From a virus, in IMG/VR virus record IMGVR_UViG_3300009184_000213, positions 1-24,222 of that record: DNA of 24,222 bases. One strand, 5' to 3'. Below, piece after piece: positions 1,557 to 20,730 of the stretch. The position numbers were made by a program, and so were the translations under genes. Every line of letters starts with the position of its first letter. Within the stretch, counting starts at the first letter, position 1. The notes under the pieces are model-generated. The model saw only the letters and a list, made by a program, of their open reading frames with translations, made no database searches and had not been told where the DNA came from.

Positions 1557-1742
1557 TTACTCTCCTTCAACATCTATTCTTTGTTCTTTAGACTCATAAA
1601 GTCTGACAACTGCAATACAAGGATCGCCTTCTTCAAACTCTATGGCTTCTTCATCACTCAGAAAAGCATCATGCGTACTGCAATGAACTGCACCAATCCA
1701 GTTTTGCTTTTGACCAATTTTTAGCCATTTATCAAATCTCAT
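1557..1742 (-). CDS. Conserved actinophage-type small acidic protein
   Basis: A 61-residue protein whose ATG overlaps the upstream methyltransferase stop as ATGA (4 bases). The core W-x4-H-C-x-T-H-D, then SDEEAIEFEEGDPCIAVVRLYE, matches a small protein family that recurs in actinophages. There a short Cys/His segment is followed by an acidic stretch and a D-P-C-I-x-V-x-R-L-Y motif. I know of no assigned function for it. The Cys and His residues could bind a metal, but the number is low. Its stop is followed by the start of the 43-aa membrane gene two bases later. Confidence 0.7.
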   Translation of the reverse strand: MRFDKWLKIGQKQNWIGAVHCSTHDAFLSDEEAIEFEEGDPCIAVVRLYESKEQRIDVEGE

Positions 1743-2596
1743 CCTTGAATCCTTTCAATAATTTCATCATCAAGTAGCAGATTTAATGCTAATTCTGCTT
1801 GCTGTGGAACAACACCATTACCACAAGCTTTTAGTTGGTCATTACGTTTTAAACCAATTTCAGGGCTACAAACCCATCCTTCAGGTAAACCCATCATCCA
1901 CTCAGTAAAATCTGCTGACAAACGGTGATTACCGTTCTTACCATCAGGTTTAGTAGGTGCAGGAGCAGGGCGTGTTACAGATTCCCACCGTTCAATCGCA
2001 GGAGCAAACTTTCCCCAACTAATGTCAGTTACTTCACCACTATTAAAAATAGCTCTAGCAACTGTATCTACTGAAACAACACCGTCACGAGTTTGAGCTG
2101 CCTGACCATCTTTATAATCTCTAACAATAGGAGTGGGAAGAAGCTCATTTACAACTGACTCCCTAAGATTTCTATAGCCACCAGGGCTACGTTTTTTCAA
2201 TTCCGCAATCTGTTCTGGGGTTTTTATTTCCCTGTGTTCCATAGTATTAGGGGTGGGTAGCAAATTGTCCGCAACCCTAGAAACCTTTAGCCCTTGACCA
2301 GAAACTAAATCCATAACCTGATCTCTAACCCCCACAGTATTGCCACGCTTCAACGCTTCAGCTTCACCCAACGCCCCACCTTCACCTTCACTTGCTTTGG
2401 GGGAACGCAATAATGAAGATTCGATATCTATTGTGTGGGGCGTTTGCATCGGCAGCTCGTAAACCACACCATTTCGCATCATACCCCATGTCGGCCAGCG
2501 ACCCAAGAACGGCTTGAATTGCTGTGAAAACAGGTCTGTCTCCCCAATCATCCAAATCTTCTTGACTGTATTCCATTCCGTTATCTGCTTTAGCAC
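1739..2596 (-). CDS. DNA cytosine-5 methyltransferase, C-terminal part (target recognition and motifs IX-X)
   Basis: A 285-residue protein carrying the second half of a phage-type C5 methyltransferase. Residues 29-50 (RWPTWGMMRNGVVYELP) match a W-P-x-x-G-M-x-R-x-G-x-x-Y block common in phage enzymes. LLPTP-type repeats lie at about residues 111-115 and 152-155. The C-terminal segment LSADFTEWMMGLPEGWV, then NDQLKACGNGVVPQQA, is the motif IX-X region. The catalytic half lies in the upstream, overlapping frame. The start is uncertain: GTG 2596 gives the longest frame, while ATG 2551 (residue 16, after AAGAAG) is an alternative. Its stop overlaps the next gene as ATGA. It probably pairs with the N-terminal half as a two-subunit enzyme. 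Confidence 0.8.
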   Translation of the reverse strand: MLKQITEWNTVKKIWMIGETDLFSQQFKPFLGRWPTWGMMRNGVVYELPMQTPHTIDIESSLLRSPKASEGEGGALGEAEALKRGNTVGVRDQVMDLVSGQGLKVSRVADNLLPTPNTMEHREIKTPEQIAELKKRSPGGYRNLRESVVNELLPTPIVRDYKDGQAAQTRDGVVSVDTVARAIFNSGEVTDISWGKFAPAIERWESVTRPAPAPTKPDGKNGNHRLSADFTEWMMGLPEGWVCSPEIGLKRNDQLKACGNGVVPQQAELALNLLLDDEIIERIQG

Positions 2597-2948
2597 TTAG
2601 TAAACCCCTAACATTTTCTATAACAACCAACTTAGGTTGTAGTTCTTCTATAGCTCTAGCAAACTCATGCCAAAGCCCCGATCTAGTTCCTTCTTTTAGC
2701 CCTGCCCTTTTACCTGCCAAAGATAAATCTTGACAAGGAAAGCCACCAGTCAGAATATCTATTTTTTCTACTCGTGTGAAATCAACTTTTGTCACATCAC
2801 GATAATTAGGTATGCCTGGAAAGTTACGTTCAAGAATCTTTGATGGAGCATCTTCCCACTCACAATGCCAAGCAAGTTCAGCATCAAGCACATTCATTAC
2901 AGCAAGATCTAAACCACCATAACCAGAAAACAGGCTGCCAATTTTCAC
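2388..2948 (-). CDS. DNA cytosine-5 methyltransferase, N-terminal catalytic part (motifs I-VIII)
   Basis: A 186-residue protein with the catalytic half of a cytosine-5 DNA methyltransferase: motif I FSGYGGLD (residues 7-14) for S-adenosylmethionine, motif IV GGFPCQDLS with the nucleophile Cys72, motif VI ENVRGL (Glu111) and motif VIII RYRIFI (174-179). It stops right after motif VIII, without a target recognition domain or motifs IX-X; these lie in the +1 frame at 1739-2596, which overlaps by 209 bases. The GTG start at 2948 shares one base with the upstream stop (TAGTG). Phages use such enzymes to protect their DNA from host restriction. No cognate restriction endonuclease is visible nearby. 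Confidence 0.9.
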   Translation of the reverse strand: MKIGSLFSGYGGLDLAVMNVLDAELAWHCEWEDAPSKILERNFPGIPNYRDVTKVDFTRVEKIDILTGGFPCQDLSLAGKRAGLKEGTRSGLWHEFARAIEELQPKLVVIENVRGLLSAKADNGMEYSQEDLDDWGDRPVFTAIQAVLGSLADMGYDAKWCGLRAADANAPHNRYRIFIIAFPQSK

Positions 2949-17272: not shown

Positions 17273-17842
17273 TTAGTTTATCTTAGTGACCTGAATAAGC
17301 ACATCATCACTTCTGCCCTTGACAGAAGTAAAATCATAGATTTTAGGGTTTATTCCCGTAAAGTTATAGATTCTTTGAGCCAAAGTATTAGCAACATCAA
17401 CGCTAACAACATCTTCAATAAAATACTTGCCACCGACATTTAAATAGTCCCACAAGTTATACAAAGCAGTTATTTGAGCTTCAACAGCGTGAGAACCATC
17501 ATCAATAATGTAGTCAAACTTACCTGTAACTAATTCCTTTATTTGGCTTTGCACAGTCGCATCACAAAGCAAAACTTCAAAAGTATCATCCTGCCACAGC
17601 AACCTAGACAAATCAATGTCCAAACCGACAATCCGAGAATCAGGTAAATAGTCAGCCCACATCTTTAGCGAATGACCAGCCCAAACACCAATCTCCAACA
17701 AAGACTTGTTTTTAGCTGCAGGAATGTTTTGACCATAAATTTCTATGTAACTGTGAGCCGTACCTTTATCGCCACCACAATCAGGCATTTGATAAGGCTC
17801 ATAGGCTTCCTGTAAAGTTTTCAAATGAGTTTCTGAGTCCAC
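17273..17842 (-). CDS. Class I SAM-dependent methyltransferase (sugar O-methyltransferase type)
   Basis: A 189-residue protein starting at GTG 17842, overlapping the epimerase stop by 22 bases. Motif I is LLEIGVWAGHS (48-58), then GLDID (73-77) binding the SAM ribose, and YIIDDGSH (111-118), a metal-type signature of CmcI/MycE-like enzymes that often methylate sugars on secondary metabolites and glycans. EDVV (143-146) follows. Neighbouring epimerase and glycosyltransferases suggest that it methylates a sugar on a phage or host glycan; the acceptor is unknown. Confidence 0.78.
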   Translation of the reverse strand: MDSETHLKTLQEAYEPYQMPDCGGDKGTAHSYIEIYGQNIPAAKNKSLLEIGVWAGHSLKMWADYLPDSRIVGLDIDLSRLLWQDDTFEVLLCDATVQSQIKELVTGKFDYIIDDGSHAVEAQITALYNLWDYLNVGGKYFIEDVVSVDVANTLAQRIYNFTGINPKIYDFTSVKGRSDDVLIQVTKIN

Positions 17843-18825
17843 GTCTTAGGGGTCAAATCAGACTGAATCTCAATCGGAAGATGATACTCAAACTCTTTCA
17901 CTCTAGGTCTAATCCAATCCACCAAATCACGCAAACCATCCTGCAAAGAAACAGTAGTCTCATAATTCAACAACTCACGAGCCTTATCAGAGCTACACAA
18001 TGCCACAGCCACTTCCTGCGGCCTACCAAGCACAAAAGTAGGCTCTAACTCAAAACCAATAATCTCTGCAAGTCTCTCAGCCAGGTTCAAAATAGTTATA
18101 GGTGACTCATCAGGGCCAATGTTGATTACCTGACCCACAGCTTCATCAGACTCACACGCCACCAAAATAGGTGCAATAACATCTTCAATGAAACTAAAGC
18201 ACCGTTGCTGACTACCATCACCATAAATAATTGGCTGCTTACCCTGCAACATCCTGTTAGCCATAATGCTTGCAACATTCCTAAACGGGTCATCAAACTT
18301 CTGTCTAGCACCAACAATGTTATGTGGCACAAGCACAACTAAATCAACACCATGAACCTTAGCCATGTTTTCAAGCAAACGCTCTGCCGACAACTTAGCA
18401 ATACCATACGGATCTTGTGGCTTAGGAGTCAAAGTCTCATCAAACACATTGCCACCGTTATCCCCGTAACGTGCCATAGATGACATGTAAATAAACTTAG
18501 GGACACCAGCCTTAATGCTTGCAGTCATAGCGTTCACACTTATCTGCACAGTATTCCTGACAACAAGGCTAGGGCTAAAAACACTCAAACCTTCATAAGC
18601 AGTACACGCAGCATGAATCACAAGGTCAGCACCAGTAAAAATAGGGGTAATGGCCTGTAAATCATCCAAGTCAACTTTATAGAGATGCACACCTTCAGGC
18701 ACATTCTCTAAACTGCCACCAAGCAGATTATCTATGCCACGAACCTTCCAGCCCTTAGCCAAATAAGCATCAGCAAGATGTGAACCAAGAAACCCTGCGA
18801 CACCCGTAATAACAACTAATCCCAA
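17821..18825 (-). CDS. NAD-dependent nucleotide-sugar epimerase/dehydratase
   Basis: A 334-residue extended short-chain dehydrogenase starting at TTG 18825 after AAGGAG. It has the glycine motif TGVAGFLGSH (7-16), Asp32 after strand 2 (NAD rather than NADP), SSMARYGD (115-122) and the catalytic Tyr140-x3-Lys144 (YGIAK). These are standard for UDP-glucose 4-epimerase-like enzymes and sugar dehydratases; the exact nucleotide sugar cannot be told. It probably supplies the sugar donor for the two transferases encoded just upstream. The start overlaps the GT2 stop by 10 bases. Confidence 0.88.
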   Translation of the reverse strand: MGLVVITGVAGFLGSHLADAYLAKGWKVRGIDNLLGGSLENVPEGVHLYKVDLDDLQAITPIFTGADLVIHAACTAYEGLSVFSPSLVVRNTVQISVNAMTASIKAGVPKFIYMSSMARYGDNGGNVFDETLTPKPQDPYGIAKLSAERLLENMAKVHGVDLVVLVPHNIVGARQKFDDPFRNVASIMANRMLQGKQPIIYGDGSQQRCFSFIEDVIAPILVACESDEAVGQVINIGPDESPITILNLAERLAEIIGFELEPTFVLGRPQEVAVALCSSDKARELLNYETTVSLQDGLRDLVDWIRPRVKEFEYHLPIEIQSDLTPKTWTQKLI

Positions 18826-19457
18826 GAATTTACTCTCCTTCTAATCAAACTCCATCTACCTTCATCAAACCTGCCATCAACCTGTTTCTGATTGAAATAC
18901 GAGCTATTATCGGCAAAAGTAACATTGTTTCTGTCAGTAAACTTAGAGCTACTCTTTATTGTGGAACTATTGTCATGCCCTAAAGCAAGTGGCAATCTAT
19001 CTATACGCAACCCAGCATTAGTTACCCTACGCTCATAGTCGTTATCTTCAAAATAGATAGGATGTAAAGCTTCATCAAATAAACCGATCTGTTCGACAAT
19101 CTTCTGACCGACAGCAAAAGTTTGCCAGTACGGAAAAGACTCTGCCAAAGTAACAGCATCATCTTTAGCGGTCTCCAACAAAGTCAAAGCACCAGGTTGA
19201 AACCAAGTATCTGCCGAAGTAATAAACCAGCGTGACTCAAACGGCAACATCTTGATACCTAAGTTCCATGAAGAAGCCACACCAAGATTAGTAGGCAACT
19301 CTAACCAATGAACATTTACTAAAGGATTCTCACAATAAAAATCATCTTGTATTACACCAGAGTTGTTGATGACATAAACTGTTGCTTCAACGTCAATGCT
19401 CTCTACCATACGCTTTAGCAAATCAAACCTGTTCAAAACAGGAACAATTAGTTTCAC
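18816..19457 (-). CDS. Glycosyltransferase family 2-like protein
   Basis: A 213-residue GT-A-type transferase. GTG 19457 overlaps the previous stop as GTGA, after GAAGAAG; an in-frame ATG at 19499 would add 14 residues that repeat the other gene's end in a new frame. The N-terminus KLIVPVLNRFDLLKRMVESI, then YVINNSG and LPTNLGVASSWNLGIK, is the family 2 nucleotide-sugar fold. SADTW stands where DxD is expected, and YFEDNDYERRVTNAGLRI holds the usual acidic motif. It is a short single-domain enzyme without membrane anchor. Confidence 0.82.
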   Translation of the reverse strand: MKLIVPVLNRFDLLKRMVESIDVEATVYVINNSGVIQDDFYCENPLVNVHWLELPTNLGVASSWNLGIKMLPFESRWFITSADTWFQPGALTLLETAKDDAVTLAESFPYWQTFAVGQKIVEQIGLFDEALHPIYFEDNDYERRVTNAGLRIDRLPLALGHDNSSTIKSSSKFTDRNNVTFADNSSYFNQKQVDGRFDEGRWSLIRRRVNSWD

Positions 19458-20653
19458 GCAAGTAACTTCTTCAGCAACGGAATCCAATGATTCTCCCACA
19501 CAGTCTCAACATCAAACTGCTTCACAAAATCTATGCTCGCCTGTGACCTAGTGCCACGAACCTTATACGATTCTTCCAAAGCGTTCACAATACTAGGAAT
19601 ACTAGGAACTCTCCACCAAGCGTTCTGGGCTGCATCCCAAGAAGGCTGACCATCAACAAGCCAACAATCTTCCGAAACAAGGTCAGGGGTAGCTGCCCAG
19701 TTAGAGCCAATCACTCTTGTCCCACAGGCTTGTGCTTCAATAGTTGGAACTCCAAAACCTTCACCATACGAAGGGGCAAGCATCACATCCATAGTCGTAT
19801 AGAAAGCAGCTAACGTCTCAGTGCTAATACCATACTTGTAGTCAGCCATGTTAGGGAAAATAATCTGCTCAGGTTTGATACCAAGAGACTCACACAACAC
19901 AAACAGATTCCAGCCACCAGCACCACCAAACGGGTCTGTATGCAAATAAAGTTTTGCATCAGGCTTATCCTTAGCGAAAATACTGAAAGCCATAATGTTC
20001 TCGGCAAAGGCTTTACGGTGCAACAACCCGCCAGCCTTATTAGCTGCGTTCATGCCAACAACAAAATCATTTTTATCTAAATTCATCCACTTACGAGTGT
20101 CAACACCAGCAACTTTATAAGTAGGTTTCACCACAGAAGTATCAACAGCATGCGGAACATATTCACACTCCAAACCATTCTCCTGCATCTGACGAACACC
20201 ATGCGGACTCATAGCAATAGGAACAACATTAGGTTTCTTCAACCAATCAAACACATCAGGTGGCATAGTTGCATGATCTAACGGAGTCCAAGAAGCAATC
20301 TTCGGCAAATTATCCCAAGCCTTACCCCGAAAAACCCACACGTCATAAAGCGTAATCAACAAGTCCTTCAACTTATCTTTTCTACCATTGTTTACAATGT
20401 TGGTGTGATGAACGTGATTCATAGGAGTCACATCATTGCTATAGTTTTCAAAACCACGAGCATAATGCGGTATAACACCAGCAGGAGTATTTAGCGTACT
20501 GTTACTGCCTTCTAACCCATAGTTACTCAAAGCAGCAACATCAATGCCGTCACGTTTCAAACGCTCAACAAGAAGCCCAGCCTGAATACCATAACCAGTA
20601 GGAACATACGGACTATTAGAAGCAATCGAAACAATACCCTTTAACTTTGACAT
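19454..20653 (-). CDS. GT-B (family 4-like) glycosyltransferase
   Basis: A 399-residue transferase starting at ATG 20653 after AAAGGAAA; an in-frame ATG at 20692 would add 13 residues that overlap the terminator tail. The two GT-B domains are visible: N-terminal acceptor part (SPYVPTGYGIQAGLLVERLKRDG), then VVPIAMSPHGVRQM and VPHAVDTSVV. In the C-terminal donor part, SYGEGFGVPTIEAQACGTRVI contains the E-x7-E motif. It is the first gene after the terminator that follows the capsid gene, so the cassette may have its own promoter in 20654-20690, or depend on read-through. Confidence 0.88.
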   Translation of the reverse strand: MSKLKGIVSIASNSPYVPTGYGIQAGLLVERLKRDGIDVAALSNYGLEGSNSTLNTPAGVIPHYARGFENYSNDVTPMNHVHHTNIVNNGRKDKLKDLLITLYDVWVFRGKAWDNLPKIASWTPLDHATMPPDVFDWLKKPNVVPIAMSPHGVRQMQENGLECEYVPHAVDTSVVKPTYKVAGVDTRKWMNLDKNDFVVGMNAANKAGGLLHRKAFAENIMAFSIFAKDKPDAKLYLHTDPFGGAGGWNLFVLCESLGIKPEQIIFPNMADYKYGISTETLAAFYTTMDVMLAPSYGEGFGVPTIEAQACGTRVIGSNWAATPDLVSEDCWLVDGQPSWDAAQNAWWRVPSIPSIVNALEESYKVRGTRSQASIDFVKQFDVETVWENHWIPLLKKLLA

Positions 20654-20689
20654 AGGATTTCCTTTTTCTCGTAGGTAACAATAGAATAG

Positions 20690-20730
20690 CATAAGAAAAC
20701 CCCCCTAGTGCCTACGCACACTAAGGGGGC
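20690..20730 (-). terminator. Rho-independent terminator after the capsid gene
   Basis: Minus-strand GCCCCCTTAGTG, an 8-base loop, CACTAGGGGGG, then TTTTCTT. A C5/G5 stem plus TAGTG/CACTA with one bulged base. It lies 20 bases past the major capsid stop and would limit read-through into the sugar cassette. The stem is nearly symmetric. Confidence 0.8.

Follow-up and report, generated by a model that had tools for sequence, protein, structure and literature searches.

In silico analysis of a 24,222-base virus record (IMGVR_UViG_3300009184_000213; GC content of about 42%), the whole of which is referred to here as the window, revealed two overlapping open reading frames, A and B. To judge from their sequences, they quite probably encode a single C5-cytosine DNA methyltransferase built of two subunits, with the start of B dual-coded within A and the middle of B composed of exchangeable cassettes. 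The preliminary description of this DNA had placed A at 2948-2388 and B at 2596-1739, with an overlap of 209 bases, and had named strings typical of the enzyme family in both frames; all of these were found at those positions. Presented below, and going beyond that description, are the array of cassettes, the distribution of the system and its fused and G-tract variants.

Other genes of the window encode a RecE-like exonuclease, RusA, a replication initiator, a tape-measure protein and a head protease, and nucleotide-sugar epimerase-like (17824-18825) and glycosyltransferase-like (19457-20692) genes lie amid the structural genes. Megablast of the entire window against phages gave 0 matches. 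A different IMG/VR contig (L008) shares 99.893% nucleotide sequence identity with the window over 5,596 nt (6 mismatches, 0 gaps) and, because it aligns without a gap, the split in the window is not an artefact of assembly. Locus L007, which duplicates the window region, was removed from every census. The stop codon of the upstream ORF overlaps the GTG of A (TAGTG; 2946-2950), and the stop codon of B overlaps the next ATG (ATGA; 1739-1742); these junctions likely provide translational coupling along an operon.

The catalytic half is encoded by ORF A. The Pfam family DNA_methylase (PF00145) matched it with an E-value of 2.9e-40 over positions 1-164 of 324, and a comparison with PDB sequences gave M.HhaI (3.9e-18) and M.HaeIII. 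The strings that we take to be motifs I, IV (with its PC), VI (with its ENV) and VIII of C5-cytosine DNA methyltransferases follow one another on A in this order:

2388..2948, minus strand: ORF A, 186 aa, GTG start; C5-cytosine methyltransferase catalytic half with motifs I-VIII
2907-2930, minus strand: motif I, read in A as FSGYGGLD
2721-2747, minus strand: motif IV, read in A as GGFPCQDLS
2604-2618, minus strand: motif VI, read in A as ENVRG
2412-2432, minus strand: motif VIII, read in A as NRYRIFI

ORF B, the specificity half, is composed of an overprinted N-terminal domain, three cassettes, a conserved WGKF block and, downstream of this variable region, motifs IX and X:

1739..2596, minus strand: ORF B, 285 aa, GTG start; specificity half
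2411..2596, minus strand: overprinted N-terminal domain of B, residues 1-62, with the WN.......W and WPTWGMMRNGVVYELP motifs
2264..2410, minus strand: cassette 1 (LRSPKASEGEGGALGEAEALKRGNTVGVRDQVMDL...), B residues 63-111, from the cassette census
2144..2263, minus strand: cassette 2 (LLPTPNTMEHREIKTPEQIAELK...), B residues 112-151, from the cassette census
2018..2143, minus strand: cassette 3 (LLPTPIVRDYKDG...DTVARAIFNSGEV), B residues 152-193, from the cassette census
1862..1927, minus strand: motif IX region of B (HRLSADFTEWMMGLPEGWV), a block also inside the PF00145 match (1-327) of the single-chain relative L169
1775..1834, minus strand: motif X region of B (LKACGNGVVPQQAELALNLL), a block also inside the PF00145 match of L169

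Profile searches with each ORF bore out the division proposed earlier, in which A carries motifs I-VIII and B the target recognition region and motif X: besides the PF00145 match of A, PHROG 1008 ("DNA methyltransferase") matched B at 2.1e-56 over residues 5-277, the part encoded in the overlap included. A Pfam search with B alone matched no family, a profile comparison of B with PDB sequences gave chance matches only (E>=1.6), and a fold search of the PDB with the weak predicted model of B (pTM 0.39) found no match at E<=0.001. In that model the N-terminal domain is beta-rich (residues 1-50, pLDDT of approximately 75-87). The single chain of L169 covers positions 1-314 of 324 of PF00145, its C-terminal block being the one found on B, and its predicted model (pLDDT 73, pTM 0.73) matches M.HhaI at 3.7e-14. 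Cassette regions are of low confidence in both predicted models (B and L169).

The start of B carries signals of its own inside A:

2605..2609, minus strand: Shine-Dalgarno-like AGGGG, 8 nt upstream of the GTG of B
2594..2596, minus strand: GTG start codon of B, with TAA (2597-2599) directly upstream in frame
2388..2596, minus strand: dual-coding overlap of 209 nt, in which B is the +1 frame of A

The AGGGG is written in the Arg-Gly codons right after the catalytic ENV of motif VI. GTG stands at the position of the window's B start in 55 of 94 split loci (with A and B separate, as in the window) and in 27 of 34 fused, single-chain loci. The Arg after ENV is AGG in 44 of the 55 split loci with the B start codon, compared with 32 of 262 other Arg codons; among split loci without a start codon at the window's position, AGG is used there in 4 of 38. 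Many loci without the GTG contain an ATG inside the Asn-Val codons of ENV, and the family thus appears to use two alternative start sites for B. As a separate observation, locus L003 (Mycobacterium phage DotProduct) contains a LAGLIDADG-like ORF, recognized by eye, at 1045-1500, within the overlap and out of the methylase frame. This insertion seems to have captured the start of B, because its TAG directly adjoins the ATG (TAGATG) of the short form of B described below. A similar junction, TGAATG, is present in L181 and L188.

Within the overlap, which is truly dual-coding, purifying selection acts on both frames. Comparison among homologues of constraint in the two frames, suggested in the preliminary description, showed that, over 89 split loci, fourfold-degenerate third positions of A have an identity of 0.361 outside the overlap and 0.596 within it (p=1.4e-8). 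The excess over each locus's own codon usage was 0.085 outside and 0.299 inside the overlap in 67 low-GC split loci, 0.014 and 0.342 in 9 high-GC split loci, and 0.154 and 0.421 in 34 fused loci (the codon tests omit the 5 of 99 split and 5 of 39 fused loci without a clean A span). For 44 loci found by A alone, third-position identity was 0.371 outside and 0.607 inside, and the step in conservation, between A codons 109-120 and 121-132, coincides with the start of B. Within the overlap, NN/NS of B is 0.49 and NN/SN of A is 0.25 (our own counting in the manner of OLGenie), both values pointing to purifying selection, with ratios that use dSS being rough because dSS is saturated in the split set; for the +1 frame in A windows upstream of the overlap, NN/NS is 0.80-0.84. 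The B residues encoded there show conservation of their own, Trp15 being retained in 123 of 123 rows, in which the A dipeptide on the same DNA takes 12 forms. The earlier view that this is not a simple frameshift error is thereby upheld.

The B frame in the overlap might nevertheless be a shadow of conserved A and biased codons, with the real B starting later or absent. The resemblance is indeed partly forced, as LADLGYDA.W of A, written in common codons, reads WPTSGMTR.G when shifted by +1, and in GC-rich loci chance alone not infrequently leaves the +1 frame open; in single-chain relatives, GC-rich codon bias alone would hold the B frame open in about one third. When A of the window was resampled with synonymous codons, B stayed open over A codons 119-182 in 3.9% of the draws. 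Across relatives, an open B frame is present in 94/94 split loci (7.8 expected) and in 34/34 fused loci (10.9 expected). Since "split" is partly defined via an open B frame, the fairer count is that of loci fetched with A alone, in which B is open over the last A codons in all 78 of 78 (duplicates included). A shadow would not explain why constraint on synonymous third positions coincides exactly with the overlap, even once codon usage is corrected for, nor the pattern past motif VIII in 17 Streptomyces loci, where NN/NS of the B frame is 0.10 and NN/SN of the A linker is 1.15. We therefore consider this explanation very improbable.

Alternatively, a single chain that unites A with the cassettes and motifs IX-X of B could arise through a +1 slip of the ribosome or RNA polymerase after motif VIII, the start of B remaining unused. 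The window does carry CCCCC directly before the stop codon of A, and fused single-chain relatives exist. However, a common slip site is lacking: CCCCC is found near the A stop in 10 of 99 split loci, and the distances of the A stop vary. Moreover, a slip past motif VIII leaves the upstream selection on the B frame, the Shine-Dalgarno sequence and the GTG unexplained, making such a mechanism improbable. Loci with B and no overlapping A were also sought; in L234, L277, L285 and L286, A-like sequence overlaps the start of B, with the full-length A frame broken or not traced, and in L220 and L249 neither an A nor a Bn match was found.

Between its fixed N-terminal domain and the likewise fixed motifs IX-X, the middle of B is an array of exchangeable modules of 30-45 residues that open with L(L)PTP or a variant of it ("LPTP" cassettes). 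In total, 574 cassettes with a median length of 38 aa were carved by regular expression from 138 loci and grouped by single linkage into 74 families, the largest of which (family 0, 209 members) is a merger resulting from this carving and linkage. The window has three cassettes, and split loci have from 0 to 7. The family of window cassette 2 occurs in 44 loci and that of cassette 3 in 38, both ranging over array positions 1 to 6. Other arrays are carried by relatives that share 97% identity with the window in A: L011 is without the NTMEHREIK cassette and L010 has extra ones. Most cassettes lie between motifs VIII and IX, as exchangeable tandem modules of the kind expected of a multispecific phage C5 methyltransferase; some follow motif X in B. 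By analogy, the cassettes are putative target-recognition modules, and our best guess is that each of them adds one recognized DNA sequence.

A different function is conceivable for the same two-subunit enzyme, in which the cassettes would bind proteins, act as decoys against host defences or be sites targeted by mobile elements. So far, no cassette has been linked to a known target-recognition domain, the cassette regions are poorly modelled, and those located past motif X are outside the usual place. On the other hand, the segment between VIII and IX, where most of them reside, is the target-recognition region of C5 methyltransferases, and in size, tandem arrangement and exchange they are similar to the domains of Bacillus phage enzymes, as far as these are described in the available text of PMC8936443. 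We hold this alternative to be unlikely and favour recognition of DNA by the cassettes.

A tblastn search with B detected relatives in 571 phage records, whose names nearly all refer to actinobacterial hosts. Of 205 loci examined, those remaining once duplicates had been taken out (judged on the opening 200 nt of the match to A) comprised 99 with the split form of the window, 39 fused, 14 other and 10 in which no C-terminal block is visible; L171, whose best A match is a second methylase in the locus, was left out of later fused counts. A scan of bacterial genomes gave at least 459 relatives, 80 of which were kept, all titled Actinomycetota (63 fused, 12 split, 2 other and 3 without an A match). 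In fused loci, the A frame continues through a linker, cassettes and motifs IX and X. These loci also hold "B-short", composed of the N-terminal domain and usually one to four cassettes followed by a stop codon (in 3 of 39 fused loci, carving detected no B-frame cassette). The preliminary description had raised the prospect of close relatives with a single intact frame and no conservation of the other; single-chain relatives do exist, and the other frame is still conserved in them. Fused loci were considered as a negative control free of the B frame and rejected, third-position constraint being present there too. Because the 17 Streptomyces loci keep the B frame and not the A linker, B-short appears to be the selected product there. 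The stop of B-short lies exactly 8 nt upstream of the following A-frame cassette in 24 of 38 phage loci and 31 of 59 genome loci; by their sequence organization, such loci contain a single array that is read partly in one frame and partly in the other, the change falling where two cassettes meet.

Split and fused forms have interchanged at least 12 times by parsimony, 6 of these changes being forced by starred branches, in a tree of 195 rows based on A upstream of the overlap and thus on few columns. Frame breaks therefore do occur in the family, which might suggest a broken or decaying gene whose split is a recent mutation or an assembly error. The gapless alignment with the second contig, the 99 non-duplicate split loci and the purifying selection on both frames make such decay extremely improbable. 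In the records of Gordonia phage Geodirt (L004, from 1143) and Arthrobacter phage Jinkies (L006, from 1128), B is annotated and the overlapping upstream A ORF is missing. In Mycobacterium phage ByChance (L005, 1495-2223), a second methylase is annotated from 1840, with the B frame open from 1495.

The window contains no run of 7 G on either strand. Runs of at least 7 G were found in relatives L001-L138, with 35 in 150,448 gene bases compared with 13 in 464,515 flanking bases (odds ratio of 8.3, from rough denominators), and many immediately precede a cassette. Two junctions were sought out for tracts of variable length. At one of them, three contigs carry G9, G8 and G10; two adjacent cassette blocks share a frame at G9 and not at G8 or G10. 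At the second junction, three other contigs carry G10, G9 and G10, two of them being identical over 2.2 kb, and the downstream cassette is in frame with B at G9 and out of frame at G10. The downstream cassette's own frame is intact at both junctions. These length differences, observed between different contigs, look like phase variation; a repeat whose length sets the frame is a feature of relatives, and the window gene has none. Arrays split over two frames, with 7-11 nt G-tracts on or close to the junctions, were noted in L052, L053, L055, L056, L057, L069, L070, L117 and L118, and an additional cassette past motif X behind a G-tract, its frame differing among relatives, in L088, L092, L106, L290, L291 and L292.

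To our knowledge, long same-strand overlaps with selection on both frames have seldom been documented in phage genes. The two genes of M.EcoHK31I overlap, and the multispecific enzymes of Bacillus phages are single chains with few domains. According to the accessible portion of PMC3404938, M.AquI is a natural two-polypeptide C5 methyltransferase whose large subunit carries motifs I-VIII and whose small subunit contributes the remainder of the variable region together with motifs IX-X, and the same division over two polypeptides is found in A and B. M.AquI differs in that each subunit has part of the variable region, and that portion mentions neither a long dual-coding overlap nor a cassette array (PMC3404938). 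M.EcoHK31I is likewise a natural two-polypeptide C5 methyltransferase (available parts of PMC3404938 and PMC3439449), but its small polypeptide contains motif IX only, whereas B of the window contains the whole variable region, IX and X (PMC3404938, same portion). The C5 methyltransferases of Bacillus phages SPR, phi3T and H2 have tandem target-recognition domains and several recognition sequences, as outlined in the text available from PMC8936443, and resemble the window enzyme in being phage-borne and in the tandem order, position (VIII-IX), size and exchange of the modules. The window family differs from them in the split subunit, the 74 cassette families in 138 loci, the use of two frames and the G-tracts of relatives. 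Orphan actinophage methylases with intein, LAGLIDADG and ShiLan insertions are reported in the accessible parts of PMC9957025 and PMC11855218; like the present loci, they show frequent within-gene recombination and an out-of-frame ORF inside the gene. Those parts treat them as single chains and do not describe the split, a conserved B frame or cassettes (PMC9957025, PMC11855218). By comparison, these published methylases very probably represent the fused form of the window family.

As far as our literature searches reach, the long dual-coding overlap with two-frame selection, the frame switching and a cassette repertoire of such size and mobility are new. The listings and papers covered by full-text literature searches do not describe the split, the conserved second frame or the cassettes of this family; subscription papers and REBASE lie outside this scope, and absence is not thereby proven. 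The earlier proposal of a two-subunit phage enzyme with dual-coding DNA gains support, at the level of sequence, from the two-frame selection, the start signals of B itself and the M.AquI-like division of motifs.

We infer that A and B assemble, that the assembly methylates DNA recognized by the cassettes and that it has an anti-restriction role. In the proposed mechanism, A and B would be made from one message through two separate starts. A would hold the AdoMet site and catalytic motifs I-VIII, and B, whose translation would begin inside A at a separate +1-frame GTG preceded by a Shine-Dalgarno sequence in the motif VI codons, would complete the fold by supplying the target-recognition region and motifs IX-X. 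The overlap is selected for motif VIII of A and for the small N-terminal domain of B, perhaps a docking piece. Each cassette would add one recognized DNA sequence, as the tandem domains of Bacillus phages do, and with one target per cassette the phage is proposed, therefore, to mark its own DNA against host restriction. By analogy, the two-subunit C5 methyltransferase is probably multispecific and most likely protects phage DNA.

A further reading, which we put forward tentatively and with some doubt, is that of a combinatorial, frame-switchable specificity, with a two-frame cassette library, exchange at junctions, G-tract switching and B-short acting as a separate specificity subunit. If so, actinophages and actinobacterial chromosomes would hold a library of recognition cassettes in two overlapping frames; exchange at junctions would rewrite targets, G-tract slippage and frame switches would toggle cassette blocks, and a phage population would bear many methylation patterns against host restriction. 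B-short (overprinted docking domain and cassettes, without IX-X) would then supply the single-chain enzyme with additional targets, comparable to HsdS of Type I systems but acting with a C5 enzyme. Since relatives are so widespread in phage records and actinobacterial chromosomes, the dual-coding overlap is testable at once in cultured phages. The A/B overlap would also account for annotators labelling two overlapping ORFs "DNA methylase", or missing one of them. Should the cassettes be target modules, they would offer a natural set of parts for programming cytosine methylation, as well as a phage equivalent of the specificity shuffling of bacterial restriction systems.
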